From a virus: a stretch of DNA of 22,220 nt. Below are positions 12,318 through 22,220 of this stretch, piece after piece. Location: positions 1 through 22,220 of IMG/VR virus record IMGVR_UViG_3300044984_001225; one strand, 5' to 3'. Under the pieces are notes generated by a model that was not told the DNA's origin, ran no database searches, and worked only from the letters and a program-made list of their open reading frames with translations. The stretch's first letter is position 1; the number at the start of each line of letters is the position of its first letter. A program made the translations under genes and the position numbers.

Positions 12318-12329
12318 CTTTACTTTATC

Positions 12330-12926: not shown

Positions 12927-12931
12927 GAAGT

Positions 12932-13180
12932 ATGGACACTAAGAAACCAAATCTTGCCGTTGCTATTCGAGCAGTGCTCTCCGAATCAACCGCAGTTAAG
13001 CCTGTGGCTGACGTTCTCCGAGAGGACTATATTGAGTCAATGGGCCCTGACTTTGATTCCGGCATTGACAAGATTGTCGCTGCGTGGACAAAGTGGAAGA
13101 AGGGACCTATGACTGAGCATGAAGACATTGCTCCAGCCAAGGCTGAGATTCTATCTTACCTCAAAGGAAAACTCAAGTAA
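12932..13180 (+). CDS. Hypothetical late protein, 82 aa
   Basis: Opens with NLAVAIRAVLSES: an amphipathic N-terminal helix ending VLSE-S, which resembles the (L/I)xE cleavage site used by T4 prohead protease. The C-terminal part carries WTKWKKGPMTEHEDIAPAKAEILSYL; the EHEDIAP piece is echoed in the next protein (EEHDITP). These features would suit a small internal head or virion protein, but this is inference. Preceded at five bases by an exact late promoter box and no Shine-Dalgarno sequence. Stop overlaps the next start (TAATG). Confidence 0.8.
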   Translation: MDTKKPNLAVAIRAVLSESTAVKPVADVLREDYIESMGPDFDSGIDKIVAAWTKWKKGPMTEHEDIAPAKAEILSYLKGKLK

Positions 13181-14169
13181 TGCCTAACATCAACGAAGAA
13201 CTTAGTGCAGCTGACGCAGCTGCTGTAACAAAGGTGATGTTGTCTATGCACGCATCTTATGGCGAGATCAACACGGTCCGCGACAAGATGAACAAAGGCG
13301 ACGTTGTCGCAGGTCTGTTACTCGACATCATGACCAAGATCGCGAGAAACACTTCGTTGTTCAATGCATTTGTTGCTGAATACAAGAAGAACGAGTCTGT
13401 CGAAGAACATGACATTACCCCAACACGATCCGCTGTCGAAGGTTTAACTGAAGCGGTCAAGATGACGAACGGCGTCAAGTGGGAACTTGCTCCTGAAAAG
13501 GAACGCCTTCGCGGAGATTACTACGTCACGTATGATGTTCGCACGAAGAAGATGGTCGCGTATGGTCTCACCTTAAAGGGAGCTGACCGTATCGCAGCAA
13601 CCGACAAAGCTAATCTCAAGTCTGCTTCAGCAAATCACTTCGCGGATAACATCATGAATAAGGGTGTGACTGAAGCCGTTCTTACCGAAGAAAACTCAGC
13701 TAAACTGATTAACGACATTGCGTCACTCAAGCGAATCGGCTGGAATCTTGATCGCGTCACAAAGCATCTGATCACCTCGAAAGAGTACGGCATTCAGATG
13801 ACGTCGGACATAATCAAGAACATCTTTTCGCCTTCATTGAATAACGGCTCCAAGATGAAGCCTGTTAAAGTTCCAAAGGATCCTTCTGGCTGGGGAACTG
13901 GCAAGAAGAAGAGCTGGCCTAAAGATCCTCCTGCATCGCGTCTTAACGATCCTCAGCACGCCGAGGGTTACATCAGCCAAGTGATTGACTCAGGTGAATC
14001 TCCTGACATCACAGGCTCGGAGATGTATTCGATTCTTGACCAAGCTGGATACACTCGCCCAACGATCATGTGGGTTGTTCGCAACTTTGGTATGGAAGGC
14101 GACCTTTCCAAGTCTCAATTGGGAACATCCGCTCCTATGGCTAAGAAGGCTCCAAAGAAAGTAATGTAA
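13180..14169 (+). CDS. Hypothetical protein, 329 aa
   Basis: Alanine- and lysine-rich, mostly helical in the first 160 residues, with EEHDITPTRSAVEGL near residues 75-89 echoing the 82-aa neighbour. A mid-segment GDYYVTYDVRTKKMVAYGLTL looks beta-rich. The C-terminal third has a proline/lysine-rich linker (PKDPSGWGTGKKKSWPKDPP, about 228-247), a helical segment and a basic tail. No enzyme motif. Start codon overlaps the upstream stop (TAATG). Position in a late unit suggests a virion-associated role, unproven. Confidence 0.8.
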   Translation: MPNINEELSAADAAAVTKVMLSMHASYGEINTVRDKMNKGDVVAGLLLDIMTKIARNTSLFNAFVAEYKKNESVEEHDITPTRSAVEGLTEAVKMTNGVKWELAPEKERLRGDYYVTYDVRTKKMVAYGLTLKGADRIAATDKANLKSASANHFADNIMNKGVTEAVLTEENSAKLINDIASLKRIGWNLDRVTKHLITSKEYGIQMTSDIIKNIFSPSLNNGSKMKPVKVPKDPSGWGTGKKKSWPKDPPASRLNDPQHAEGYISQVIDSGESPDITGSEMYSILDQAGYTRPTIMWVVRNFGMEGDLSKSQLGTSAPMAKKAPKKVM

Positions 14170-14170
14170 C

Positions 14171-14380
14171 ATGGCAAGAACCCATTTAACAGAAGCGGCC
14201 AAAACGATCCTAGCTGAAGCATCTGCAAACGACAAGAAGTTCGCGGCTGTTATGGAGCTCGTCCGAAATGTAACCGATCCTGTTCCTCTTACCAAGTTCA
14301 AGATCTCGAAAGGTGTCGGCGGCTACTTCATATCTGACGGCGACGGCAACACCTGGAAAATTCTTGGTGAAAAAAGTTGA
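14171..14380 (+). CDS. Hypothetical protein, 69 aa
   Basis: N-terminal helix THLTEAAKTILAEASAND ends in ILAE-A, matching the (L/I)xE cleavage pattern of T4 prohead protease and resembling the N-termini of the 82-aa and 72-aa proteins in this window. The second half (FKISKGVGGYFISDGDGNTWKIL) is a short beta-type domain with a DGDG turn. It may be a small capsid-targeted protein; that rests only on the N-terminal pattern. Last gene before the RNA region. Confidence 0.7.
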   Translation: MARTHLTEAAKTILAEASANDKKFAAVMELVRNVTDPVPLTKFKISKGVGGYFISDGDGNTWKILGEKS

Positions 14381-14408
14381 AATAATCTCCTCTTAAGTAC
14401 TCTCTCTG

Positions 14409-14416
14409 TATAAATA
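14409..14416 (+). promoter_or_regulatory. T4-type late promoter, TATAAATA
   Basis: Exact match. The predicted +1 is about 14422, five bases before the ATG of a 29-codon ORF, so unlike the other late boxes it is not exactly in register with a start codon. It could instead produce a late transcript across the RNA region. Confidence 0.55.
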
Positions 14417-14542
14417 AATTCACAAGATGAAACACGAACATTCATATAAGCCATCAGATTCGCCGCAAGCGATTCTACGTGCTTGGGTGAATTTCAGACT
14501 AACATTTTCTGGATGATGCATTTCTAACCTCTCTTCTTCGGT

Positions 14543-14580
14543 CTTGAAATGCATGCTCCTAACAAAGCATGCATTTCAAG
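14543..14580. terminator. 15-bp perfect inverted repeat, possible terminator
   Basis: Arms CTTGAAATGCATGCT and AGCATGCATTTCAAG with loop CCTAACAA. It closes the protein-coding block and abuts the promoter at 14581. A factor-dependent or hairpin terminator, an mRNA end stabiliser or a protein-binding palindrome are all possible; the missing U tract argues against a standard intrinsic terminator. Confidence 0.5.
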
Positions 14581-14609
14581 TTTACAACCTAACACAAACC
14601 TGATACAAT
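14581..14609 (+). promoter_or_regulatory. Sigma70-like promoter, TTTACA-17-TACAAT
   Basis: TTTACA at 14581-14586, TACAAT at 14604-14609, extended -10 TGA. No gene follows closely: the predicted transcript starts near 14616 and runs into structured, non-coding sequence, so it probably feeds the RNA array. Confidence 0.8.
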
Positions 14610-14833
14610 ATTTCTGTAACGATTGGTGTTGCCACAATCTCAATCGTTTCCTTTTCAAGCAAGGCTTGGATCGTATCTGTTCATTACACTCCTCTGTCAA
14701 AGTTTTCTCATCCGGTCTGAAAAGAGCCTAAGGGAACGCGAAACTGACTCACAGCGCTTCGGCCTGAGTCAACGCTAGCGGGCGAATCCCAGTTGACCCG
14801 AGAAAAATAAAATTCATTTGTAGCACAAAGTTA
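14610..14833 (+). other. Non-coding stretch with two tandem hairpins
   Basis: No convincing ORF. Two inverted repeats sit back to back: GACTCA (14746-14751) with TGAGTC (14765-14770), and GTCAAC (14768-14773) with GTTGAC (14792-14797). They share bases, so the two helices could be mutually exclusive, as in an attenuator. The remainder shows nothing I recognise. Confidence 0.4.
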
Positions 14834-14862
14834 TTTACAAGTGCGAGAAACTTTGATAGAAT
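14834..14862 (+). promoter_or_regulatory. Array promoter, TTTACA-17-TAGAAT
   Basis: TTTACA at 14834-14839, TAGAAT at 14857-14862, extended -10 TGA. Probably the main early promoter of the tRNA array; the next 240 bases are a structured leader with a boxA-like site. Confidence 0.85.
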
Positions 14863-14974
14863 TTGCTGAGGCGATTGATTGAGCGAGTTGCAAAACTGCT
14901 CGGTTATTCTTCCTCCCTCGAAGTGAATATGCTTCGTTGAATCCGTTCTTTGACAATCGAAAACAAAACCAACT
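14863..14974 (+). promoter_or_regulatory. Array leader with hairpins and boxA-like antitermination site
   Basis: Hairpin one: GAGCGAGTT and AACTGCTC around GCAA (14881-14901). Hairpin two: CGAAG/CTTCG with an 8-nt loop (14919-14936). Eight bases later CGTTCTTTGACAAT (14944-14957) closely resembles bacterial rRNA boxA elements (consensus about TGYTCTTTRACAA), which recruit NusB-S10 to make polymerase resistant to Rho. A boxB-boxA layout is as expected for an untranslated 7-kb operon. Confidence 0.65.
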
Positions 14975-15049
14975 GAGGGGAACATGTGTTCAGTTAGAGC
15001 CGCTCCTTCAGGAGTAGAGTTCCACTAATCCCCTCGGTTTCTTTCCGAG
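14975..15049 (+). ncRNA. Structured tRNA-like remnant with 7-bp terminal helix
   Basis: GAGGGGA (14975-14981) pairs perfectly with TCCCCTC (15029-15035), enclosing a CTCC/GGAG hairpin. It is only 61 nt, has no T arm and no CCA. A second hairpin CTCGG/CCGAG (15033-15049) overlaps its 3' end. It is the first folded unit after the leader; identity unknown. Confidence 0.4.
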
Positions 15050-15055
15050 ATCACG

Positions 15056-15103
15056 AAAGTGCTGGCTAACAACCCGCGGCGAGTAACTGATCTCAAACAC
15101 TTT
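15056..15103 (+). other. Short structured element, AAAGTG/CACTTT closed
   Basis: AAAGTG and CACTTT pair around about 35 nt that include GGCTAAC, CCGCGG and GGCGAGTAAC. These short words also occur in 16S rRNA, but not with the right spacing, so I do not call rRNA here. Confidence 0.3.
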
Positions 15104-15174
15104 GGCGTTGGTCTAAATTCTAACGACATCAGGTTTCCAACCTGAAGATCCGGAATCGCTCCGGCCGCCAACAC
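15102..15174 (+). tRNA. Degenerate tRNA-Gly(UCC)-like
   Basis: TTGGCG pairs with CGCCAA, anticodon stem TCAGG/CCTGA closes loop TTTCCAA (anticodon TCC), D region GGTCTAAATTCTAACGACA is recognisable. The T arm (CCGG/CCGG around AATCGCT) is one pair short and the end reads ACA, not CCA. Probably decayed; an intact tRNA-Gly(UCC) lies at 20248. Confidence 0.5.
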
Positions 15175-15180
15175 TTTAAG

Positions 15181-15257
15181 GTGACCGCCCTGTCGTAAGA
15201 GTCTGTAGCTCGAAGAGACAAGCTAATCATAATTGCACAGCTGGGTTCGTGCAGCCA
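15181..15257 (+). ncRNA. tRNA-like remnant ending CCA
   Basis: Ends CCA followed by TTTTT, as in array units. GTCT/AGAC and GCAC/GTGC helices and a GGGTTCG T-loop-like segment are visible, with CAT in a small AAT/ATT hairpin, but no proper cloverleaf forms by eye. I treat it as a broken or unusual tRNA-like unit. Confidence 0.35.
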
Positions 15258-15258
15258 T

Positions 15259-15337
15259 TTTTGATGATAGGAAGACCCCAGGATGTCACTAAGACTGGCA
15301 TAGTAAGGAAACCGAATCTGGTATGTGCTCATCAAAA
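15259..15337 (+). ncRNA. Structured element closed by a 9-bp helix
   Basis: TTTTGATGA (15259-15267) pairs perfectly with TCATCAAAA (15329-15337). Inside are CCAG/CTGG and CATA/TATG helices. There is no anticodon arm or T loop. The long AT-type end helix resembles that of the element at 18856. Function unknown. Confidence 0.45.
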
Positions 15338-15363
15338 TAAGTTAAACATGCCGCGCTTTCAAT

Positions 15364-15458
15364 AGGTTGGTGGAAACAAATTCACAAAGCCAAGTGGTAT
15401 GGCATCGGTTCCGATCAAACCGATTTCTTCGAGGGTTCGATTCCCTCTCAGCCTTTCA
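15364..15458 (+). tRNA. Oversized tRNA-like gene, anticodon uncertain (GAU?)
   Basis: Acceptor AGGTTGG pairs with TCAGCCT, T arm GAGGG-TTCGATT-CCCTC is perfect and D arm GCC/GGC is present, but about 18 extra nt separate acceptor and D arm. The anticodon hairpin has seven pairs (ATCGGTT/AACCGAT) around CCGATCA, which would give GAT. The 3' end is TCA in place of CCA. Confidence 0.5.
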
Positions 15459-15466
15459 TTTTCAGA

Positions 15467-15558
15467 TATGATTAAAGAGCGGTGACTAATTCCGCGCCTG
15501 TCCACTATGCGTAACTCGCGGACTTGTTAGTGTAACGGTAAGCACGTGATCATGTTCA
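15467..15558 (+). ncRNA. Aberrant tRNA-like element
   Basis: Terminal helix TATGATT/GATCATG (7 bp), then T and TCA before the TTTTC junction. Internal arms GCGG/CCGC and GTCC/GGAC (enclosing GCG/CGC) do not match tRNA arms, and no T loop is present. The segment from 15518 (GCGGACTTGTTAGTGTAACGG) looks like the 5' half of a tRNA, so a truncated gene is an alternative. Confidence 0.4.
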
Positions 15559-15567
15559 TTTTCATAA

Positions 15568-15644
15568 CGGGATGTAGCTCAGCTTGGTAGAGCGCTGCGT
15601 TTGGGACGCAGATGCCGTCGGTTCGAATCCGGCTATCCCGACCA
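15568..15644 (+). tRNA. tRNA-Pro(UGG)
   Basis: Acceptor CGGGATG/TATCCCG, anticodon stem CTGCG/CGCAG with loop TTTGGGA, T loop TTCGAAT, encoded CCA. Canonical fold throughout. Confidence 0.95.
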
Positions 15645-15647
15645 CTT

Positions 15648-15733
15648 TCACGACGAGCTTGTAGTCATGACCAAGCGATGGTTCATAAGTAAAGCTTTTA
15701 CGAAAAGCCGTTCGATTCGGCAGTCGAGAAACC
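15648..15733 (+). tRNA. Aberrant tRNA-like gene with CAU
   Basis: Acceptor TCACGAC/GTCGAGA has one A-A mismatch, D arm GCTT/AAGC and T arm GCCG-TTCGATT-CGGC are intact, and an extra GCTTTT/AAAAGC arm sits in the variable region. The loop TTCATAA suggests CAU but its stem is mostly unpaired. The end is ACC instead of CCA. Confidence 0.45.
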
Positions 15734-15742
15734 CTTTCATAT

Positions 15743-15828
15743 GCGTGTGTTGATCTAGCGGCGAAGACGGAAGATTGTAAACCTTCCCCTTAAACGGCAC
15801 GTGGGTTCGAGTCCCACCGCACGCACCA
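15743..15828 (+). tRNA. tRNA-Tyr(GUA)
   Basis: Acceptor GCGTGTG/CGCACGC, anticodon loop TTGTAAA (GTA) on stem GAAGA/CCTTC with an A-C pair at 31-39, long variable region as expected for bacterial Tyr, T arm GTGGG/CCCAC, CCA encoded. Confidence 0.85.
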
Positions 15829-15838
15829 CTTTCTAAAT

Positions 15839-15927
15839 TCTCTTGTAGCTCAATGGCAGAGCGGTTGATTGTTAATCAGCAGGCCCTTAAAAGGTAAATG
15901 TAGGTTCGAGCCCTACCAGGAGACCCA
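15839..15927 (+). tRNA. tRNA-Asn(GUU) with long variable arm
   Basis: Acceptor TCTCTTG/CAGGAGA, anticodon stem GTTGA/TCAGC with loop TTGTTAA, T arm GTAGG/CCTAC, CCA encoded. The variable region is about 19 nt and contains CCTT-AA-AAGG, unlike normal tRNA-Asn (five bases). Confidence 0.88.
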
Positions 15928-15935
15928 CTTTCAAT

Positions 15936-16009
15936 GCTGCTATCGTCTAAGGGTAGGACGCCTGACTTTCAATCAGCAAATCGGAGTTCAACTCTCCGTA
16001 GCAGTACCA
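15936..16009 (+). tRNA. tRNA-Glu(UUC)
   Basis: Acceptor GCTGCTA/TAGCAGT, anticodon loop CTTTCAA (TTC), T arm CGGAG/CTCCG around TTCAACT, CCA encoded. Canonical. Confidence 0.93.
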
Positions 16010-16017
16010 CTTTCAAA

Positions 16018-16092
16018 TGGATTGTAGCTCAGAGGCAGAGCACCCGCCCGATAAGCGGTAGGTCGAGATTTCGAAATTCTCCAGTCCAACCA
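16018..16092 (+). tRNA. tRNA-Ile(GAU), C33 in the anticodon loop
   Basis: Acceptor TGGATTG/CAGTCCA, anticodon stem about CCGC/GCGG with loop CCGATAA (GAT), CCA encoded. Position 33 reads C where U is nearly universal, and the T stem GAGAT/TTCTC has a T-T mismatch, also seen in the tRNA-Val at 17981. Confidence 0.82.
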
Positions 16093-16094
16093 TT

Positions 16095-16171
16095 TTACGT
16101 ATCGTCTAAATCATAAAGATGCCCGACCATGAATCGGGAGATGCGAGACATTGAAGCTCGCTACGCAATCC
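16095..16171 (+). tRNA. Degenerate tRNA-like, apparent anticodon AUG
   Basis: Acceptor TTACGTA/TACGCAA has one A-C mismatch, D region matches the TCGTCTAA type, anticodon stem CCCGA/TCGGG closes loop CCATGAA (ATG, with C33). The T arm GCGAG/CTCGC has a 9-nt loop without TTC, and no CCA follows. Likely non-functional or unusual. Confidence 0.45.
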
Positions 16172-16231
16172 GCACCCCGCGCATACCCGGCCGGGACCAA
16201 GAGTCATGATCTTGATGTAGGGGTGCAACCA
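16172..16231 (+). tRNA. 60-nt T-arm-less tRNA-like gene, anticodon CAU
   Basis: GCACCCC pairs with GGGGTGC, a small CCC/GGG hairpin takes the D-arm place, and CAAGA/TCTTG closes loop GTCATGA (CAT). Only five bases separate the anticodon stem from the acceptor, so the T arm is absent, yet CCA is encoded and followed by the normal CTTTC junction. Confidence 0.55.
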
Positions 16232-16245
16232 CTTTCTGAAACAGA

Positions 16246-16322
16246 CGGGGCAAAACATTGCTGGTTGATGTACTAGGCTCTTAACCTTGAGAACTCGGTT
16301 CGATTCCTGAGTGCCCCGACCA
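16246..16322 (+). tRNA. tRNA-Lys(CUU)
   Basis: Acceptor CGGGGCA/TGCCCCG, D arm ACAT/ATGT, anticodon loop CTCTTAA (CTT) on a stem with one T-T mismatch, T loop TTCGATT, CCA encoded. Confidence 0.87.
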
Positions 16323-16329
16323 TTTCAAA

Positions 16330-16404
16330 TCCTGTGTAGCTCAGCGGCAGAGCGGGTGACTGTTAATCACTAGGTCCTTGGTTCGATCCCAAGTTCAGGA
16401 GCCA
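16330..16404 (+). tRNA. tRNA-Asn(GUU), second copy
   Basis: Acceptor TCCTGTG/TTCAGGA with one mismatch, anticodon GTGA-CTGTTAA-TCAC, normal 5-nt-type variable region, T arm CTTGG/CCAAG, CCA encoded. A conventional tRNA-Asn, unlike the copy at 15839. Confidence 0.93.
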
Positions 16405-16425
16405 CTTTCAAAATCATTCATCAAC

Positions 16426-16500
16426 GCTCACGTGGGGGAATGGCTACTCGGCAGATTGCAACCCTGTCCTATGTCGGTTCGAGTCCGGCCGTGAGCTCCA
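16426..16500 (+). tRNA. tRNA-Cys(GCA)
   Basis: Acceptor GCTCACG/CGTGAGC, discriminator T as usual for Cys, anticodon loop TTGCAAC (GCA), T arm GTCGG-TTCGAGT-CCGGC, CCA encoded. The 31-39 pair is A-C. Confidence 0.88.
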
Positions 16501-16509
16501 ATTTTATTT

Positions 16510-16585
16510 CCGAGGGTAGCCTAATCGGTTAAGGCCCTGCACTGTGAATGCAGCTATTCGGGTTCGATTCCCGGCCCGCGGACCA
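16510..16585 (+). tRNA. tRNA-His(GUG)
   Basis: Acceptor CCGAGGG/CCCGCGG with one A-G mismatch, anticodon CTGCA-CTGTGAA-TGCAG (GTG), T arm TCGGG/CCCGG, CCA encoded. The base before position 1 is T and the discriminator is A, so the typical G(-1)-C73 pair is not encoded. Confidence 0.88.
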
Positions 16586-16601
16586 TTTTCTTTTAACATA
16601 T

Positions 16602-16685
16602 GCGCGGCTGGTGGAATGGTATACACGGCAGTTTTAGAAGCTGTTGCCTTCGGGCTTGGGGGTTCGAGTCCCCCGTCGCGCACCA
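16602..16685 (+). tRNA. tRNA-Leu(UAG)
   Basis: Acceptor GCGCGGC/GTCGCGC, anticodon loop TTTAGAA (TAG), class II variable arm, T arm GGGGG/CCCCC around TTCGAGT, CCA encoded. Confidence 0.95.
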
Positions 16686-16695
16686 CTTTCATAAT

Positions 16696-16783
16696 GCTGC
16701 AGTAGGGTAATGGTAGCCCCCCAGAATTTCACTCTGGCCGATCGCAAGATCTCGTGCGGGTTCGACTCCCGTCTGCAGTTCCA
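16696..16783 (+). tRNA. tRNA-Glu(UUC) with long variable arm
   Basis: Acceptor GCTGCAG/CTGCAGT, anticodon CCAGA-ATTTCAC-TCTGG (TTC), T arm GCGGG/CCCGT, CCA encoded. The variable region holds a GATC-GCAA-GATC hairpin, not expected in class I tRNA-Glu. Confidence 0.88.
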
Positions 16784-16795
16784 CTTTCATTCAAT

Positions 16796-16872
16796 CGCGG
16801 GGAGGACAAGACGGTTAGTCGGCAGTCTCATAAGCTGCAATCTGGGAGATTCGAGCGCTCCACCCGCAACCA
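16796..16872 (+). tRNA. Initiator-like tRNA-Met(CAU)
   Basis: Begins CGCGGGG and ends CCCGCAACCA, the same ends as E. coli tRNA-fMet, including the C1-A72 mismatch that marks initiators. The anticodon stem GCAGT/GCTGC around CTCATAA lacks the three G-C pairs of initiators, and the T stem has an A-G mismatch. Confidence 0.85.
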
Positions 16873-16885
16873 CTTTCAAACATAA

Positions 16886-16960
16886 GCCTCTATCGTTTAA
16901 TGGATAGGACTCTCGCCTTCTAAGCGACTAACGTAGGTTCGATTCCTACTGGAGGCACCA
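16886..16960 (+). tRNA. tRNA-Arg(UCU)
   Basis: Acceptor GCCTCTA/TGGAGGC, anticodon TCGC-CTTCTAA-GCGA (TCT), T arm GTAGG-TTCGATT-CCTAC, CCA encoded. Canonical. Confidence 0.95.
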
Positions 16961-16975
16961 CTTTCAAATTTTCAT

Positions 16976-17051
<76 letters not shown>

Positions 17052-17061
17052 CTTTCATAAT

Positions 17062-17194
17062 GCCGGATTAGTTTAATGGGAAAACGGTACACGATGGCTA
17101 GCTCTCACCTAGTAAAGGAGCAAGATTGAGTAGGCCTCAAAATCTGCCATCTCGATGTAACAACGCGGAGGTTCGATTCCTTCATTCGGTTTCA
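17062..17194 (+). tRNA. 133-nt tRNA-like gene with interrupted anticodon arm
   Basis: Acceptor GCCGGAT/ATTCGGT (7 bp), D region TAGTTTAATGGGAAAAC and T arm GGAGG-TTCGATT-CCTTC are tRNA-like. Where the anticodon loop should be, GATGGC and GCCATC pair around about 47 nt containing further GCTC/GAGC and GATTGAG/CTCAAAATC helices. No anticodon can be assigned; the end is TCA, not CCA. Confidence 0.5.
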
Positions 17195-17207
17195 TATTTT
17201 CAAATAA

Positions 17208-17282
17208 GGAGCATTCGTATAATGGTCATTACGACCGCCTGTCGAGCGGTATACACGGGTTCAATTCCCGTATGCTCCGCCA
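17208..17282 (+). tRNA. tRNA-Asp(GUC)
   Basis: Acceptor GGAGCAT/ATGCTCC, anticodon ACCGC-CTGTCGA-GCGGT (GTC), T arm ACGGG/CCCGT, discriminator G, CCA encoded. Canonical. Confidence 0.95.
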
Positions 17283-17290
17283 ATTTCAAT

Positions 17291-17368
17291 TGCGGATAGG
17301 ACAAGATGGTTAGTCGCCACCCTCATAAGGTGGATCTCTGTGGGATTCGAGCGCCCAGTCCGCAACCA
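17291..17368 (+). tRNA. tRNA-Met(CAU), elongator type
   Basis: Acceptor TGCGGAT/GTCCGCA with a paired 1-72, anticodon CCACC-CTCATAA-GGTGG (CAT), T region GATTCGAGCGC shared with the initiator-like gene at 16796, CCA encoded. Confidence 0.88.
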
Positions 17369-17379
17369 CTTTCATAAAT

Positions 17380-17438
17380 GATAGAGCGTCTGCTTTGCAA
17401 GCAGAATGTAGATGGTCCGAATCCGTTAATCTCTATCA
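17380..17438 (+). tRNA. 59-nt D-arm-less tRNA-Ala(UGC)-like gene
   Basis: GATAGAG pairs perfectly with CTCTATC; only CG separates it from the anticodon arm TCTGC-TTTGCAA-GCAGA (TGC), so the D arm is missing. T arm GATGG-TCCGAAT-CCGTT is present. No CCA: TCA before CTTTC. It seems to derive from the tRNA-Ala at 16976 by loss of the 5' part. Confidence 0.5.
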
Positions 17439-17454
17439 CTTTCTAAACATAGAT

Positions 17455-17530
17455 GGGCTCGCATGTACCTCGGGGGCGAGAAACACTTGCAATGTATCTG
17501 TGGCCGGTTCGATCCCGGTCGGGTCCACCA
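17455..17530 (+). tRNA. tRNA-Ala(UGC)-like, third copy
   Basis: Acceptor GGGCTCG/CGGGTCC, weak anticodon stem (ACA/TGT) with loop CTTGCAA (TGC), T arm GCCGG-TTCGATC-CCGGT, CCA encoded. The D arm is irregular (CTCG-GGGG-CGAG). Confidence 0.65.
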
Positions 17531-17541
17531 ATTTCAACAGT

Positions 17542-17979
17542 ATGGCACTAAGTCAACGATATCACAAGACAGGAAGAACCAAGCGAACAGTTCAATGCGC
17601 TCATTGCAGCAAAGACACTCACAATGGCAAATTCTGCTCGACTGATTGCTCGTTCAGATTCAAAGAGGCTTCATTGCTAAAGAGAATCTTAGATGATTCA
17701 ATTGTAGGCACGGTTGCTCTTAAGCGATATGTGTTATCGCTGAATCCTAAATGTTCTCTGTGCCCATGCACCGACGAGTGGAACGGATTGAAACTCGTTC
17801 TTCATTTGGATCACATAGATGGCGATAGTGACAACGATAGACTTTCAAATGTTCGTCTGTTATGTCCTAACTGTCATTCACAGACGGAAACATACTGCTC
17901 GAGAAATAAAACTAATCCAAACTCGAAGAGATCAAAACGTCTCCGACGAGCACCATCAAGGTGCAAACAAATTTCATAA
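17542..17979 (+). CDS. HNH homing-type endonuclease with zinc finger, 145 aa
   Basis: N-terminal zinc finger C19-x2-C22 and C32-x3-C36 (CAHC...CSTDC), then an HNH core: C71-x2-C74 (CSLC), LHLDHIDG (H88, D90, H91), N103 (LSNVRLLCPNCH) and C108-x2-C111-H112. The tail is basic (SKRSKRLRRAPSR) and could grip DNA. The enzyme probably cuts near tRNA genes and promotes its own spread. ATG 17542 lies 11 bases after the tRNA-Ala CCA, and its stop TAA falls in the junction just before tRNA-Val, so it occupies exactly one inter-tRNA slot. Confidence 0.85.
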   Translation: MALSQRYHKTGRTKRTVQCAHCSKDTHNGKFCSTDCSFRFKEASLLKRILDDSIVGTVALKRYVLSLNPKCSLCPCTDEWNGLKLVLHLDHIDGDSDNDRLSNVRLLCPNCHSQTETYCSRNKTNPNSKRSKRLRRAPSRCKQIS

Positions 17980-17980
17980 T

Positions 17981-18055
17981 GCGCGCGTAGCTCAGAGGTA
18001 GAGCAAGTTCCTTACAAGAACGAGGCCGAGATTTCAAAATTCTCCGTGCGTACCA
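17981..18055 (+). tRNA. tRNA-Val(UAC)
   Basis: Acceptor GCGCGCG/CGTGCGT, anticodon GTTC-CTTACAA-GAAC (TAC), CCA encoded. T stem GAGAT/TTCTC has the same T-T mismatch as tRNA-Ile, with loop TTCAAAA. Confidence 0.9.
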
Positions 18056-18059
18056 TTTT

Positions 18060-18098
18060 CAGGAGGGCCCGAGTCCATGTCTCCTCCGCAATTAACAT
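18060..18098 (+). other. Short spacer hairpin between tRNAs
   Basis: AGGAG (18061-18065) and CTCCT (18081-18085) can pair. Otherwise nothing recognised in this 39-base spacer. Confidence 0.3.
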
Positions 18099-18173
18099 GC
18101 CACCGTAGCTCAGAGGCAGAGCGACCGTTTCATAAGCGGTAGGCCGGGATATCATGATTCCCCGGTGGCACCA
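18099..18173 (+). tRNA. tRNA with CAU anticodon (Met or Ile2)
   Basis: Acceptor GCCACCG/CGGTGGC, anticodon ACCGT-TTCATAA-GCGGT (CAT), CCA encoded. The T loop ATCATGA is abnormal. The identity, Met or lysidine-modified Ile reading AUA, cannot be decided by eye. Confidence 0.8.
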
Positions 18174-18213
18174 ATTTTCATTCTTCGAGATCGCTTGCAG
18201 GCATCTCGGACAA

Positions 18214-18342
18214 GCGCGCGAACATATCAGACCGATGAGCTGCAACTCGTCAAGATGGTATGATGGCGGTCGACTAGAGGATAAGTCACGGGCTCTATAG
18301 TCTGGACGCGGGTTCGAATCCCGCTTGCTGTATGTCGCGCGC
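18214..18342 (+). ncRNA. 129-nt tRNA-like RNA with extended end helix; possible CUA anticodon
   Basis: Ends pair as GCGCGCG-A-ACATA with TATGT-CGCGCGC. Inside are a GACCG/CGGTC helix enclosing hairpin GATGAG/CTCGTC, then a D-like arm GACT/AGTC, a hairpin CGGGC/GTCTG with loop TCTATA, and a perfect T arm GCGGG-TTCGAAT-CCCGC. A smaller tRNA using ATGGCGG/TTGCTGT is an alternative. No CCA. The loop could be read as CUA (amber) but lacks a standard seven bases. Confidence 0.45.
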
Positions 18343-18355
18343 AAGTTTTTCAAAC

Positions 18356-18429
18356 AGGTGGGTCGTTCAATGGTAGGACCTTGGATTCCAAACCCAAAGA
18401 CTAGAGTTCGATTCTCTATCCACCTGCCA
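18356..18429 (+). tRNA. tRNA-Trp(CCA)
   Basis: Acceptor AGGTGGG/TCCACCT, discriminator G, anticodon loop TTCCAAA (CCA) on TTGGA/CCCAA with A-C at 31-39, T loop TTCGATT, CCA encoded. Confidence 0.9.
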
Positions 18430-18433
18430 CTTT

Positions 18434-18441
18434 AATAAATA
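18434..18441 (+). promoter_or_regulatory. Late-type box, AATAAATA
   Basis: Seven of eight bases of TATAAATA. The +1 predicted six bases after the box is 18447, the A of the next ATG, the same register as the exact late boxes at 12919, 20553 and 21115. Confidence 0.55.
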
Positions 18442-18446
18442 CATGC

Positions 18447-18638
18447 ATGAAGACATTCCTTGAGTTCATTGAAAAATCGCCTAAGCTCGGTGATACGATT
18501 ACATGGGCAGCTGGCGAAAGACGATTGAGCGGTAAGGTGATTCGAGGCATGGATGGCCAAAAGCTAGTCGTTAAACATCCTACTGCTTATGGACAAGAGA
18601 TTCCGATCTCGTCATTGCGCGGAATCAAGATAAGCTAA
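18447..18638 (+). CDS. Small late protein, 63 aa, capsid-targeting-like N-terminus
   Basis: Begins MKTFLEFIEKS, which resembles the capsid-targeting sequence of T4 internal proteins (MKTYQEFIAEA). The rest, GDTITWAAGERRLSGKVIRGMDGQKLVVKHP, is a compact beta-rich domain like a small KOW/SH3-type fold. It could be packed into the head and injected, but the evidence is only the N-terminal similarity and the late promoter. No Shine-Dalgarno sequence; probably leaderless. It sits between tRNA-Trp and tRNA-Thr. Confidence 0.8.
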   Translation: MKTFLEFIEKSPKLGDTITWAAGERRLSGKVIRGMDGQKLVVKHPTAYGQEIPISSLRGIKIS

Positions 18639-18649
18639 CTACTTTCTTG

Positions 18650-18678
18650 TTTACATTTTCTCTTGACTGTTGTAGAAT
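18650..18678 (+). promoter_or_regulatory. Internal array promoter, TTTACA-17-TAGAAT
   Basis: TTTACA at 18650-18655, TAGAAT at 18673-18678. It restarts early transcription after the 63-aa late gene and would feed the second half of the array. An ATG at 18684 opens only 12 codons, so no protein is implied. Confidence 0.8.
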
Positions 18679-18763
18679 AACACATGCTGATTGAGCGTTG
18701 CCCGAACAACCGGACAACTTAAATAACCGCTAATGAGGTGGCCAATCAACATATCATCTTTTA

Positions 18764-18850
18764 GCTGTGGTCGCTTAGTGGTCGATAGCACCGGTTTTGT
18801 AAGCCGGATGGGCAACCTCGCCGTGAGTTCGAATCTCACTCACAGCTCCA
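18764..18850 (+). tRNA. tRNA-Thr(UGU) with long variable region
   Basis: Acceptor GCTGTGG/TCACAGC, anticodon CCGGT-TTTGTAA-GCCGG (TGT), T arm GTGAG-TTCGAAT-CTCAC, CCA encoded. The variable region is about 15 nt (GGGCAACCTCGCC), long for tRNA-Thr. Confidence 0.9.
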
Positions 18851-18855
18851 TTTTC

Positions 18856-18986
18856 TTTTCATGATAGCAAATCGGTAAAGCGGTTGGATAGTAGCCTATT
18901 ACACATGGCCAAACCTGACGATGAATCACGAGTGGTGCTCGGAAGATTCAAACAATGATGGACTCAAACCCATCTCATGAAAAACA
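18856..18986 (+). ncRNA. Oversized tRNA-like element closed by a 9-bp helix
   Basis: TTTTCATGA pairs with TCATGAAAA, followed by ACA and the TTTTC junction. A D-like AGCAAATCGGTAAAGC and a T-like GATGG/CCATC arm are present; the middle holds ATAG/CTAT and a GAATC/GATTC hairpin with an inner CGAG/CTCG. No anticodon loop can be assigned. Confidence 0.4.
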
Positions 18987-18994
18987 TTTTCCAT

Positions 18995-19092
18995 CGGGGC
19001 GTTAACATAGCTTGGCAATGTGGGCGACTTGGAATCGCTTGAGGGCAGAAAGAGTCTGTCTTCCGTGGGTTCGAATCCCACCGTCCCGACCA
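18995..19092 (+). tRNA. tRNA-Pro(UGG), second copy, long variable arm
   Basis: Acceptor CGGGGCG/CGTCCCG, D arm ACAT/ATGT, anticodon GGCGA-CTTGGAA-TCGCT (TGG), T arm GTGGG/CCCAC, CCA encoded. The variable region has a 6-bp hairpin (GGCAGA-AAGAG-TCTGTC), which tRNA-Pro normally lacks. Confidence 0.88.
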
Positions 19093-19097
19093 ATTTC

Positions 19098-19173
19098 GTT
19101 GATGTATCGTCTAAGTGTAAGGACACTCGCTCTCCAGCTTGAAATACGGGCTTTTTCAATCCGTTGCATCAAC
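19098..19173 (+). tRNA. Degenerate tRNA-like gene, anticodon unclear
   Basis: Acceptor GTTGATG/CATCAAC is perfect and the D region (TCGTCTAAGTGTAAGGACA) is normal, but the anticodon arm does not pair (CTCCAG region) and the T arm ACGGG/TCCGT has a 9-nt loop. TCG replaces CCA. Confidence 0.45.
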
Positions 19174-19226
19174 TCGTTTTGCTTAATGTGGGATTTCGCC
19201 ACACCTATTCCCTAGGCGCACACTGT

Positions 19227-19320
19227 GGAAGGCTGGCAGAGTCTGGTCTATCGCGTCTGTCTCGAAAACAGATGGTCTGTGAAAGCAGACCCGTGGGTTC
19301 AAATCCCACGCCTTCCTCCA
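19227..19320 (+). tRNA. tRNA-Ser(CGA)
   Basis: Acceptor GGAAGGC/GCCTTCC, anticodon TCTGT-CTCGAAA-ACAGA (CGA), class II variable arm GGTCTG/CAGACC, T loop TTCAAAT, CCA encoded. Canonical. Confidence 0.95.
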
Positions 19321-19329
19321 TTTCAAAGA

Positions 19330-19415
19330 TGAATTCGATTAACAGAAGGTCTGTTGAATCACAGCATGAGTCGAGAATTCAACCGGTGCTCGTTCACCGT
19401 TCATGCAAACGAGAT
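19330..19415 (+). ncRNA. Structured remnant between two tRNA-Ser genes
   Basis: TGAATTC/GAATTCA pair around a strong GATT-AACAG/CTGTT-AATC hairpin, and GCATGA/TCATGC enclose a CGGTG/CACCG hairpin; the helices overlap, so they are alternatives. Ends at an ATTTTC junction without CCA. Not a recognisable tRNA. Confidence 0.35.
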
Positions 19416-19421
19416 TTTCAT

Positions 19422-19512
19422 GGGTGTTTGGTCGAGTGGTTTATGGCGCCAGTCTTGAAAACTGGAGATGGTTAACAGCTGTCCGTGGGTTCAAATCCCA
19501 CAGCACCCGCCA
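19422..19512 (+). tRNA. tRNA-Ser(UGA)
   Basis: Acceptor GGGTGTT/AGCACCC, anticodon CCAGT-CTTGAAA-ACTGG (TGA), class II variable region, T arm GTGGG/CCCAC, CCA encoded. Canonical. Confidence 0.95.
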
Positions 19513-19518
19513 CTTTTA

Positions 19519-19610
19519 GACGGAGTAAAATCCTATCGAGCGGTTAGGCTGAAAGGCCATTGCGTCGAAATGCAACGAACAATAACCCGGCAAACACGTT
19601 GCTCTGATAT
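19519..19610 (+). ncRNA. tRNA fragment-like sequence (Ser-type?)
   Basis: D-like arm CCTA/TAGG and a TTGC/GCAA hairpin with GTCGAAAT resembling a Ser(CGA) anticodon arm are visible, but no matching acceptor 3' strand, T arm or CCA. Probably a truncated gene. Confidence 0.35.
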
Positions 19611-19616
19611 TCATAT

Positions 19617-19704
19617 GCGTCACGAAAGCAGGCGGCTTCCTGCAGCAAGACTGTAAATCTTGTCTCTTCACCGAGGAGTGGGTCGGCACCACCGGGGCGC
19701 ACCA
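19617..19704 (+). tRNA. tRNA-Tyr(GUA), second copy
   Basis: Acceptor GCGTCAC/GGGGCGC with one mismatch, anticodon CAAGA-CTGTAAA-TCTTG (GTA), variable arm CTC/GAG, CCA encoded. The T loop GTCGGCA is abnormal. Confidence 0.8.
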
Positions 19705-19712
19705 ATTTCAAT

Positions 19713-19830
19713 AGGACTACGGCTCTGCTGTTCTAACAGCGATTCTTTCAGGGAACGAGACAAGCAAGCCTGTAAACTTGCTACCGGTGCTCCGGTTAGA
19801 CTTAGGGGAAGATCCTGAGTAGGCCTACCA
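19713..19830 (+). tRNA. 118-nt oversized tRNA-Tyr(GUA)-like gene
   Basis: Acceptor AGGACTA/TAGGCCT (one mismatch), anticodon hairpin GCAAG/CTTGC around CCTGTAAA (GTA, 8-nt loop), variable arm ACCGG/CCGGT, six-pair T stem CTTAGG/CCTGAG with loop GGAAGAT, CCA encoded. About 40 nt replace the D arm and include a GCTGT/ACAGC hairpin. Confidence 0.55.
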
Positions 19831-19842
19831 ATTTACAAATCC

Positions 19843-20068
19843 TCGCTGTTAATCAGCAGCTAGTGTGTTCACGAAGAAAATGGTAAAGGAACGGCAAGCC
19901 TTTGCTCACACGAAAGAAGCCTGTAGCACAGGTAAAAATCGTAAGCCAAAGGTTGTTATGATAAGCAACAAAGGGCGTCCCGGCTACTGAGGCCGTATCC
20001 CACAGTTCATTGGAGCCTAACAGCGATGAAGGTGAACAAACCGCTTCGGCGGTTGTGAGAATCAGCGA
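19843..20068 (+). ncRNA. 226-nt structured RNA of unknown class
   Basis: TCGCTG (19843-19848) pairs with CAGCGA (20063-20068), and the CTTTC junction follows. Inside: CCTTTG/CAAAGG enclosing CCTGT/ACAGG, GTTGTT/AGCAAC, CGGC/GCCG with a 7-nt loop, GTTCA/TGAAC, and a very stable AACCGC-TTCG-GCGGTT hairpin. No ORF worth calling and no match to a known RNA I can name. GCTGTTAATCAGC near the 5' end recalls a tRNA-Asn anticodon arm. Confidence 0.5.
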
Positions 20069-20078
20069 CTTTCTATAA

Positions 20079-20153
20079 CCACCCATAGCTGAAATGGATT
20101 AGCACAGGATTGAAACCCCTGAGATGTTGGATCGTTACCAACTGGGTGGGCCA
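20079..20153 (+). tRNA. tRNA-Phe(GAA)
   Basis: Acceptor CCACCCA/TGGGTGG, anticodon loop TTGAAAC (GAA) on CAGGA/CCCTG with A-C at 31-39, T arm GTTGG/CCAAC with unusual loop ATCGTTA, CCA encoded. Confidence 0.88.
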
Positions 20154-20162
20154 CTTTCAAAT

Positions 20163-20237
20163 GGGCGTAAAGCTTTAATGGTGAAGCTTCCGACTTTTAA
20201 TCGGATGAACTGGGATCGTTACCCAGTGCGCCTACCA
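20163..20237 (+). tRNA. tRNA-Lys(UUU)
   Basis: Acceptor GGGCGTA/TGCGCCT, anticodon TCCGA-CTTTTAA-TCGGA (TTT), T arm CTGGG/CCCAG with the same ATCGTTA loop as tRNA-Phe, CCA encoded. Confidence 0.92.
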
Positions 20238-20247
20238 ATTTCATAAC

Positions 20248-20327
20248 GCGTCGTTCGCATAGTCTGGCTTATCGCACTTGTTTTCCAAACAAGCACCTCG
20301 TGGGTTCGAATCCCACACGACGTACCA
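20248..20327 (+). tRNA. tRNA-Gly(UCC)
   Basis: Acceptor GCGTCGT/ACGACGT, anticodon CTTGT-TTTCCAA-ACAAG (TCC), T arm GTGGG-TTCGAAT-CCCAC, CCA encoded. Confidence 0.92.
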
Positions 20328-20336
20328 CTTTAACAG

Positions 20337-20460
20337 CTAACCAATCATCTGACAAAGATGACATGCATCACTCGCTTGTATTTGATTGGTTAGAACGCTA
20401 AGCAGCACAATGGTAAGCGTTAATCGGGCCTCTAGGTGCTCGTCGTGTGCAACCTTTAAT
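20337..20460 (+). ncRNA. Long hairpin plus tRNA-like fragment
   Basis: CTAACCAATCA (20337-20347) pairs perfectly with TGATTGGTTAG (20383-20393), with CATC/GATG inside. Next, AACGCT/AGCGTT (20394-20421) encloses a D-loop-like CACAATGGTAA, followed by AGGT-GC/GC-A-ACCT. No anticodon or T arm. It fills one array slot. Confidence 0.4.
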
Positions 20461-20466
20461 TTTCAT

Positions 20467-20541
20467 GCGCGTATCGTATAACGGTTATTATGATGGCTTG
20501 CCAAGTCATAAATGGGAGTTCGATTCTCCCTACGCGCACCA
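20467..20541 (+). tRNA. tRNA-Gly(GCC)
   Basis: Acceptor GCGCGTA/TACGCGC, anticodon ATGGC-TTGCCAA-GTCAT (GCC), T arm GGGAG-TTCGATT-CTCCC, CCA encoded. Canonical. Confidence 0.94.
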
Positions 20542-20552
20542 CTTTCATTTCA

Positions 20553-20560
20553 TATAAATA
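20553..20560 (+). promoter_or_regulatory. T4-type late promoter, TATAAATA
   Basis: Exact late box; +1 six bases downstream is 20566, the A of the next ATG, so the message would be leaderless. Confidence 0.75.
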
Positions 20561-20565
20561 GTTTC

Positions 20566-20784
20566 ATGGGACACAAACCAAATTCTATTTTCGAAGCAGC
20601 GCACTCAGTGTTGACAAATGAAGCGAACGTTCCACCACCTCGCGTGTCGAAGGAAATTCGTTACAAGAATAAAAGTGGCGAAACCCGCGTAAGCTCGGTC
20701 AGTCCTGCAAAGGAAGACGAAGAAGTTAAACTGATCAAAGCGTTGGGTGGCACGATCGTCAAGATCACTGACGTCACGCACTAA
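20566..20784 (+). CDS. Small late protein, 72 aa
   Basis: N-terminal helix SIFEAAHSVLTNEANVP resembles the helices opening the 82-aa and 69-aa proteins (VLSE-S, ILAE-A), perhaps a head-targeting segment. A basic middle (RVSKEIRYKNKSGETR) and an acidic stretch (AKEDEEVKLIKAL) precede a short C-terminal TIVKITDV beta strand. No known domain. Occupies the slot between tRNA-Gly and tRNA-Arg under an exact late promoter. Confidence 0.8.
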   Translation: MGHKPNSIFEAAHSVLTNEANVPPPRVSKEIRYKNKSGETRVSSVSPAKEDEEVKLIKALGGTIVKITDVTH

Positions 20785-20795
20785 TAATTTCAAAT

Positions 20796-20870
20796 GGCCC
20801 GTTGGTATAACGGATAGAACATCGGCTTGCGAAGTCGAGGATCCAGGTTCGATTCCTGGGCGGGCTACCA
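20796..20870 (+). tRNA. tRNA-Arg(GCG)
   Basis: Acceptor GGCCCGT/GCGGGCT, anticodon TCGGC-TTGCGAA-GTCGA (GCG), T arm CCAGG-TTCGATT-CCTGG, CCA encoded. Bacteria normally read CGC with an ACG (inosine) tRNA, so GCG is uncommon. Confidence 0.9.
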
Positions 20871-20877
20871 TTTTTTA

Positions 20878-21000
20878 GGGAGGTTAGTTTAAAGGTAAAA
20901 CCTCGTGACTAAGCGAGCGATGTTGTTAGGTAATCAAGGAGAATGACGTCAACTCCTTCTTGTGCGTTCTAACTCGGTTCAAGTCCAACATCTCCCACCA
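20878..21000 (+). tRNA. 123-nt oversized tRNA-like gene
   Basis: Acceptor GGGAGGT/ATCTCCC, D region TAGTTTAAAGGTAAAACC and encoded CCA are normal. The hairpin CTCG/CGAG has an 8-nt loop TGACTAAG (no safe anticodon). About 60 nt lie before the T loop TTCAAGT, with nested helices GATGTTG/CAACATC, GTTAG/CTAAC and AAGGAG/CTCCTT. Confidence 0.5.
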
Positions 21001-21010
21001 TTTTCCAATT

Positions 21011-21094
21011 GACGCGAAGCCTAGCGGCCTGGCGCCGGTCTTTGAAACCGGAGAGAGCAATCTCATCGTGGGTTCGAATCCCACCGCGTCTACT
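21011..21094 (+). tRNA. tRNA-Gln(UUG) with variable arm, CTA end
   Basis: Acceptor GACGCG/CGCGTC, anticodon CCGGT-CTTTGAA-ACCGG (TTG), extra arm GAGA-GCAA-TCTC in the variable region, T arm GTGGG/CCCAC. The 3' end reads CTACTTTC where other genes have CCACTTTC, so CCA is not encoded intact. Confidence 0.8.
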
Positions 21095-21114
21095 TTCCTT
21101 TAAGATTCGAACCA

Positions 21115-21122
21115 TATAAATA
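21115..21122 (+). promoter_or_regulatory. T4-type late promoter, TATAAATA
   Basis: Exact late box; +1 at 21128 is the G of the GTG start of the nuclease gene. An ATG two bases earlier (21126) is in another frame. Confidence 0.75.
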
Positions 21123-21127
21123 GATAT

Positions 21128-21748
21128 GTGTACTACACTGTCTATAAGATTACGAATCAAGTGAACAACAAGATTTATGTTGGAGTTCATAAGACGCGCA
21201 ATCTTGATGATTCTTACATGGGTTCAGGGCTAATGCTAAAGAGAGCAATCACTAAGCATGGTCTCGAAAACTTCAAGAAGGAATATCTTGCGGTCTTTGA
21301 CAATCCTGATGATATGTTTAACATGGAATCTGAATTAGTGAATGAAGACTTCGTTAAGTCAACTCATTCTTACAATATGAAGGAAGGCGGGCATGGAGGA
21401 TGGGATCACATTTCGCAAACTACTAGGCATGCTGCTCAGCTTAAAGGAGCACGCGCCATCGCTCATAGAATAAAAACTGATCCTATACTCAGAAAACAAA
21501 ACTCAGACAGATGCAAAGCAACTACTGCTAGATCTAAAGAGGCAGGATTATACAAAGGCAAAAAAGCTTTCTTAGGCAAATCTCATTCTGATTCAACACG
21601 AAAGAAGATGAGCGTGTCTCATCAAGGAAAACATGACGGCTCAAGAAATTCTCAGTTTGGTTCCATGTGGATCACTGATCGAGTTTCAAACAAAAAGATT
21701 TCAAAAGACGATCCTATTCCAGACGGATGGATGAAAGGTCGAACATAA
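21128..21748 (+). CDS. GIY-YIG homing endonuclease with NUMOD3 motif, 206 aa
   Basis: N-terminal GIY-YIG domain: YYTVYKIT (2-9) and KIYVGVHKT (15-23), SYMGSG at 29-34, catalytic-type glutamate E69 in MESELVNEDFV and YNMKEGG after it, the standard Seg/intron-nuclease order. The C-terminal region has a NUMOD3-like FLGKSHSDSTRKKMSVSHQGK segment, a DNA-grip module, and a final MWITD repeat-like tail. Function: a site-specific nick or cut that promotes gene conversion of this locus. The start is GTG, leaderless under a late promoter, as late expression is usual for T4 Seg proteins. Confidence 0.88.
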   Translation: MYYTVYKITNQVNNKIYVGVHKTRNLDDSYMGSGLMLKRAITKHGLENFKKEYLAVFDNPDDMFNMESELVNEDFVKSTHSYNMKEGGHGGWDHISQTTRHAAQLKGARAIAHRIKTDPILRKQNSDRCKATTARSKEAGLYKGKKAFLGKSHSDSTRKKMSVSHQGKHDGSRNSQFGSMWITDRVSNKKISKDDPIPDGWMKGRT

Positions 21749-21754
21749 TTTCAT

Positions 21755-21826
21755 ACTCGTATCGTCTAGCTGGATAGGATGTCCCTGCGCAGGGAGACGG
21801 TGGTTCGATCCCATCTGCGAGTTCCA
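21755..21826 (+). tRNA. tRNA with 6-nt anticodon loop (Arg GCG?)
   Basis: Acceptor ACTCGTA/TGCGAGT, normal D region, T arm GGTGG-TTCGATC-CCATC, CCA encoded. The anticodon hairpin TCCC/GGGA holds only TGCGCA, so one base is missing; if T is position 33 the anticodon is GCG. Confidence 0.65.
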
Positions 21827-21830
21827 ATTT

Positions 21831-21914
21831 GCTAAGGAGCGGGTATGCTCTGGCCTGACGGATAGTGACCGTTCATAGACGAAGCCGTTGGTAATCGGTT
21901 CCAACTTAGTAACA
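21831..21914 (+). tRNA. tRNA-Thr(AGU)-like
   Basis: Acceptor GCTAAGG/ACTTAGT (one mismatch), D arm GAGC/GCTC, anticodon GACGG-ATAGTGA-CCGTT (AGT, U33 present). T arm GCCG/CGGT has an 8-nt loop without TTC. The end is ACA, then CTTT. Confidence 0.5.
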
Positions 21915-22016
21915 CTTTGAGTATGCCAATGCGTTCGGTAGGTAACATTGCATGGCATGAGTAACCCGGAAACGCATCCGCTCATGCTGATAACACCGAC
22001 TCGTCAGTACACTTTT
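21915..22016 (+). ncRNA. Structured spacer element
   Basis: Two hairpins: CAATG/CATTG extended by ATGCC/GGCAT, and GCATGAG/CTCATGC around a 19-nt loop. Ends ACACTTTT, close to the array junction. No tRNA fold is evident. Confidence 0.35.
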
Positions 22017-22095
22017 GCAATGTGTGTTCGAGCATTCGAGAGTACGGACTTTTACTCCGGAAAGTGCGGATGCTGTAATCTGATCATACTCATTA
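22017..22095 (+). ncRNA. tRNA-Lys(UUU)-like remnant
   Basis: A CGGA-CTTTTAC-TCCG hairpin resembles a Lys anticodon arm (TTT), within an AGCAT/ATGCT helix, with TTCGAGCATTCGAGAG like a D arm upstream. No acceptor or T arm can be paired. Probably a broken gene. Confidence 0.35.
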
Positions 22096-22097
22096 AC

Positions 22098-22171
22098 TGC
22101 CCGTTAGTATAATGGTAATACTCGCGACTTTGACTCGCGCTATCCGGGTTCAATCCCCGGGCGGGCTACCA
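22098..22171 (+). tRNA. tRNA-Gln(UUG), second copy
   Basis: Acceptor TGCCCGT/GCGGGCT with a T-T mismatch at 1-72, anticodon CGCGA-CTTTGAC-TCGCG (TTG), T arm CCGGG-TTCAATC-CCCGG, CCA encoded. A weak 1-72 pair is typical for Gln. Confidence 0.92.
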
Positions 22172-22181
22172 TTTTCAATGT

Positions 22182-22220
22182 CGGAATGTTGGCTTAGAAG
22201 CAGCCATCGTCTAAGGAGTG
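22182..22220 (+). rRNA. 23S rRNA GTPase-associated-centre fragment (cut by window end)
   Basis: Bases 22186-22208 are identical, as I recall the sequence, to E. coli 23S rRNA around 1057-1079 (core GGCTTAGAAGCAGCC), the helix 43/44 region that binds protein L11 and thiostrepton and contacts EF-G and EF-Tu. The following bases CGTCTAAGGAGTG keep the expected pattern (TTTAAAGA-GTGCG in many bacteria). It begins after a normal array junction (CCATTTTC), so it sits in a tRNA slot. Its 3' extent lies outside the window. Confidence 0.75.

Follow-up and report, generated by a model that had tools for sequence, protein, structure and literature searches.

The T4 tRNA cluster encodes two stable RNAs of unknown function, RNA C and RNA D, and leader RNAs of the L10 leader type (RF00557) imitate the site on rRNA to which a ribosomal protein belongs. 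RNAs of other kinds, GOLLD and ROOL, are also known from phage tRNA arrays (PMC12286853). Phages also encode the ribosomal proteins bL12, bS21 and uL11, which target the ribosome; both bL12 and uL11 do so at the same stalk (PMC6375957, PMC13157829). In the ribosome itself, the 58-nt H43/H44 region of 23S rRNA is the uL11 site and folds in isolation (PMC4409310). Phages carry a conserved family of RNA genes resembling this GTPase-associated centre (GAC), with a definite architecture, covarying helices and, often, a placement in tRNA arrays. The family shares with the 23S GAC (part of RF02541) the H43 sequence and loop, the 1082-1086 pair, U1060, A1088, the H44 loop GUARNA and the same order of helices at the three-way junction. 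It differs in being a stand-alone gene with its own H42-like sequence and a structured insert at 1090/1091, in having A for U1101, in its relaxed positions 1061, 1068 and 1070, and in a second insert after 1077, found in 12 of 125 members. Like GOLLD and ROOL, which are structured phage or prophage RNAs of unknown function often near tRNA islands, it is a structured phage RNA often found near tRNAs, but it is much shorter, contains a recognisable ribosomal domain and has no Rfam match; at the gathering score the GOLLD and ROOL models had no hit in 12 loci, and in three members there was no hit even at E up to 5. RNA C and RNA D resemble it in being small RNAs from a phage tRNA cluster whose function is unknown, but neither has a GAC core and our family covariance model R1 found no match in locus L146, so we rejected them as relatives. 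The L10 leader differs in that the phage RNA is a separate gene with no ribosomal-protein gene seen downstream and no Rfam match, and the phage ribosomal proteins are protein and not RNA. The family is apparently undescribed: Rfam has no family for it and we found no description in the literature searched (subscription journals and preprints lay mostly outside that search), in keeping with the first-pass annotation of this DNA, which knew of no such phage RNA.

The window, that is, the whole stretch of DNA analysed, makes up an entire IMG/VR record of 22,220 bases, and the sequence stops at 22220. An RNase H-type exonuclease, a second exonuclease and a ribonucleotide reductase give its phage a T4-like look, although this placement is approximate. 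The features that matter here, numbered where needed by their E. coli 23S equivalents, are as follows.

12233-22171, + strand: phage tRNA array with 28 tRNAs called by ARAGORN, tRNA-Gln being the last
22098-22171, + strand: tRNA-Gln(UUG) with encoded CCA (ARAGORN; Rfam tRNA 52.5 bits)
22176-22220, + strand: truncated 5' end of a phage GAC-like RNA (family model R1, 52.2 bits; LSU model, 27.3 bits)
22177-22184, + strand: 5' strand of the H42-like closing stem (equivalents of 1048-1055), placed by the family alignment, where this stem covaries
22185, + strand: A at the 1056 position, which in the family tends to go with a C1082-G1086 pair
22186-22210, + strand: H43 stem-loop (equivalents of 1057-1081), read directly against the family alignment
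22211-22215, + strand: CUAAG with the C1082-G1086 pair, a form present in phage RNAs and absent from the cellular 23S examined
22216-22219, + strand: GAGU, the H44 5' strand (1087-1090), which immediately precedes the insert site and hardly varies in the family

About 5 nt past tRNA-Gln, where the H42-like stem begins, the window reads CAATGTCGGAATGTTGGCTTAGAAGCAGCCATCGTCTAAGGAGTG and the record then ends. H43 has A-U, U-G and G-C as lower pairs and GGC/GCC as upper pairs, with the A1067 equivalent at 22196. The last base of the record (22220) is the first base of the H44 insert, and the 3' strand of the H42-like stem falls beyond it; since this copy is truncated, its 3' half must be inferred from relatives. 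The first-pass annotation had proposed a sense-direction match to 23S H43/H44 in the slot after tRNA-Gln, and both parts hold: the 23-mer that it named lies at 22186-22208, directly behind that tRNA, and LSU_rRNA_bacteria aligns to 22180-22220 on the + strand (E 1.5e-6, model positions 1092-1132, cut off at the 3' end), at a score below the gathering score of 50. Model R1 matches 22176-22220 with E 6.8e-11 over positions 1-45 of 155. The window's final 45 bases are thus almost certainly the start of a phage-encoded GAC-like non-coding RNA gene. It is no bare fragment of 23S rRNA, as complete members of the family have their own H42-like closing stem and a variable H44 insert.

The same 23-mer is found, without mismatch, in 20 further IMG/VR stretches. 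Ordinary 23S continues from it in only one of them (L022); in the remaining stretches unrelated sequence follows, and about 90-275 nt later comes GGCGTARNAGCACA, which is the 3' side of H44. A scan for TTTGGCGTARNAGCACAC returned at least 120 stretches. Among the matches listed, 115 of 131 passed a strict rule that required the H43 motif upstream and 16 of 131 exact 3' signatures lacked the 5' motif under the first strict rule, several of which later proved to be variants. A looser rule gave at least 125 distinct members, bacterial genome contigs included, and 112 once similar inserts were removed. With these relatives and their covarying stems, the suggestion of a stand-alone, sense-strand GAC mimic in a phage tRNA array is supported. 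Members come from IMG/VR contigs, cultured phages and some bacterial genome contigs. Searching 200 genomes of one phylum with the family model yielded a clearly phage-type match in one, the search-centre genome already known as a carrier; the other matches listed score like 23S. The whole RNA is present in the cultured phages Cronobacter GAP32, Pectobacterium CBB, Xanthomonas XacN1, Pseudomonas Milchi, pf16 and UNO-G1W1, and Aeromonas 4_4572; both halves were matched in Astolliot, and the 5' half was matched, in the parts examined, in Erwinia and Serratia BF jumbo phages and in the XbC2 and XaC1 records. None of these phage records annotates an RNA at this place, and those of Milchi and Kaldavass have hypothetical proteins across it. 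Locus L124 has two GAC-like RNAs in tandem (3847-4336, - strand).

In E. coli numbering, the RNA consists of the H42-like stem (1055-1104 outward), position 1056, H43 (1057-1081), the 1082-1086 pair and GAGU (1087-1090), followed by a variable insert with its own closing stem and then UUUG, GC-GUARNA-GC and ACAC (1091-1104), so that in full members the signature UUUGGCGUARNAGCACAC follows the insert. The stem that replaces H42 has 8-9 bp, and H44 is interrupted between 1090 and 1091 by the variable structured insert; members measure 94-434 nt (median 200). Some insert modules are common to distant phages, namely CACCCC(G/A)-tetraloop-GGUAAGG, GACCCUUAGAG, and GUGCGAAAUG with UGAUGUGC; GGUAAGG occurs in 27 of 112 inserts and CACCCCG in 18 of 112. 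One member, at L060 1054-1179 (- strand), has extra 23S-like sequence around H42 on both flanks (GACAGCCAGGATG ... CACTGGCCGAG) and is possibly near the original capture of 23S sequence.

The proposed helices are supported by covariation. In 51 aligned members, 95.4% of cells pair as against 73.4% after shuffling, and the covariation score is 0.566 as against 0.142; none of 500 shuffles attained either measure, both sides had changed in 13 of 21 pairs, and sliding the alignment by one column abolished the signal. Across 125 members the H42-like stem pairs in 86% as against 47% with shuffled partners, falling to background beyond about 9 bp, and the insert closing stem pairs in 74% as against 46%. 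Compensatory changes occur in the H42, H43 and 1082-1086 helices. The minimum-energy fold of the L143 member has the expected helices, without extra stability over shuffles (z-score 0.24), and thermodynamic z-scores were not significant. The 23S GAC has a contact between 1056 and the 1082-1086 pair, and the two are associated in the phage RNAs as well: among 106 members, A1056 goes with C-G in 25 and with U-A or A-U in 14, and G1056 with C-G in 4 and with U-A or A-U in 56 (Fisher p 9e-10, a significance inflated by sequence relatedness). The association is not exclusive, as A stands with U-A 12 times. It suggests a tertiary contact, for which we have no probing data or structure, and the GAC-like tertiary fold of the core is likewise inferred.

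As the window's motif lies at the extreme end of its record, we considered whether the last 39-45 bases are host 23S mis-assembled onto a phage contig. An 83-kb sister contig is identical across the overlap but ends at window position 22093, short of the motif, so that the last 127 bases of the window are supported by a single record; no other record with the window's exact tRNA-Gln pattern was found. Such contamination does occur, as the deposited Paenibacillus phage record Pd_22F holds true host 23S sequence and several other records probably do too. What speaks against it here is the diagnostic bases. The 35 distinct cellular 23S compared all have G1056 and none has C1082-G1086, which is present in 29 of 106 phage RNAs; 25 of the 106 phage RNAs, but none of the 35, share the combined A1056/C1082-G1086 form seen in the window. 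These 35 represent three phyla and a few further genomes and were drawn by a 23S query, which biases them to typical sequences. In addition, none of 299 genomes from one phylum had the window form GCAGCCAYCNTCTAAGGAGT, whereas GCAGCCAYCNTTTAAAGAR, the UUUAAAGA form, was present in 99 of them. The window's spacing after the tRNA matches that of other members, and its 45 bases score well with the family model, although whole copies of 23S reach 46-62 bits with that model across the shared core; hence the family score alone does not discriminate and the diagnostic bases do. Other members, at 24.5, 21.7 and 21.0 bits, also fall below the LSU_rRNA_bacteria (RF02541) gathering score. The rest of 23S is absent around members, whose flanks are tRNAs or ORFs (downstream of the window's copy lies beyond the record), and the H44 of members is interrupted, unlike that of RF02541. 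Host rRNA joined by chimerism, which the first-pass annotation had named as the result that would overturn its reading, is therefore rejected on the diagnostic bases and we regard it as very improbable. Separately, the phage-collection records MZ092003 and KM209255 contain host 23S, OR845016, OR847528 and similar ones probably do, and the same holds, for certain or probably, for several phage-collection records from Listeria, Staphylococcus, Salmonella, Escherichia and Acinetobacter.

Our preferred reading is that this is a widespread RNA class with a working copy of the GAC fold, its own closing stem and a variable H44 domain, made with the phage tRNAs and processed like them, which binds uL11 or seizes stalk-base factors and so alters elongation-factor or RelA/ppGpp function, controlling translation or the stringent response. 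We put the probability of this reading as a whole at about 0.5. Of 109 viral copies, 58 have a tRNA within 500 nt, as compared with 34% of random places in the same loci; in all 58 the tRNA is on the same strand, and it often stands about 10-20 nt from the core on one or both sides. From this spacing we infer tRNA-type processing: in an array the RNA would be transcribed with the array (we have no expression data) and would probably be cut from the transcript by tRNA-processing enzymes. No protein cluster recurred in more than 4 of the loci examined, and the RNA itself is therefore likely the active part. Its conserved fold would then probably bind host uL11, and perhaps other stalk-base partners, off the ribosome; uL11 would be lowered or redirected, which may alter elongation-factor or RelA/ppGpp function in infection, and the insert may serve as phage-specific tuning or as a second binding site. 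We favour uL11 because the 58-nt region, which folds in isolation, is where uL11 binds, and because conservation falls on the core; of the partners suggested, L11 agrees best with this pattern, but this is a guess from conservation without binding data. We consider binding of uL11 somewhat better supported than an even chance, any named physiological effect is doubtful and a guess, and our best guess remains that the RNA, by binding uL11, acts on the base of the ribosomal stalk as a decoy or regulator, its function being untested.

The pattern of conservation also bears on other partners. U1060, A1088 and G1093-U1094-A1095 are invariant across the family, and the A1067 and A1095 equivalents are mostly retained. 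Positions 1061, 1068 and 1070 vary in the phage RNAs (1068 in 19% and 1070 in 23%) and in none of the 35 cellular types, and so the phage RNA is not a strict copy of the 23S GAC; judged from sequence alone, this argues mildly against a role that needs the exact H43 loop. A decoy for translational GTPases, RelA or the tRNA elbow at the stalk base, acting via the H43/H44 loops and not via uL11, could draw on the presence of both loops and on the invariant G1093-U1094-A1095, but the relaxed 1068 and 1070 and an insert that adjoins the H44 loop leave it rather unlikely. That the RNA absorbs thiopeptide antibiotics such as thiostrepton would accord with the retained A1067 and A1095; yet A1067 is changed in 17 of 113 members (15%, not significantly different from the 9% in cellular 23S) and many carrier hosts have no expected thiopeptide exposure, and we find this hardly credible. 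Phage tRNA arrays have been proposed to resist tRNA-cutting defences, and the same-strand tRNA genes alongside 58 of 109 loci would suit an analogous decoy, one that draws off a host toxin or defence enzyme acting on the ribosomal GAC by cleavage or modification. However, no defence enzyme with the GAC as its target is known to us, 34 of 109 viral loci have no tRNA in the stretch examined, and selection for a separate insert would be left unexplained, which makes it improbable. The GAC fold might also be a stable scaffold only, for an RNA that binds a phage protein or self-assembles; the large structured insert with recurrent modules would agree with this, and other ornate phage RNAs build RNA-only cages (PMC12286853). 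Against it, there is no recurrent protein neighbour, and that phages of such diversity have all kept the ribosomal core suggests a partner in the host, so that we think it unlikely.

If the preferred reading is true, viruses would have a class of RNAs that mimic a functional ribosomal domain, and two open questions would be joined, namely the reason for large phage tRNA arrays, with their unexplained gaps, and the phage takeover of translation. It is directly testable, since carriers include cultured phages. Regardless of function, a GAC fold that tolerates large natural inserts in H44 offers new comparative data for a much-studied rRNA tertiary domain.

Some minor observations were made around these RNAs. 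A DUF2828 protein is encoded 1.5-2.9 kb downstream of the RNA in L041, L042, L093 and L176, and a neighbour protein resembling peptidyl-tRNA hydrolase by eye had no Pfam match and was set aside. In L010, a phage tmRNA (8864-9131, tag ANTNFALAA) lies about 200 nt downstream of the GAC-like RNA. Within the window, 270 nt between two tRNA slots (21826-22097) have no tRNA or convincing gene; complementary GAGTATG/CATACTC is present there, but structure is not shown (fold z-score -0.85). A weak tRNA (21755-21823, Rfam 31.1 bits) was not called by ARAGORN, a GIY-YIG homing endonuclease lies within the tRNA array at 21128-21748, and an HNH endonuclease ORF lies at 12288-12923.
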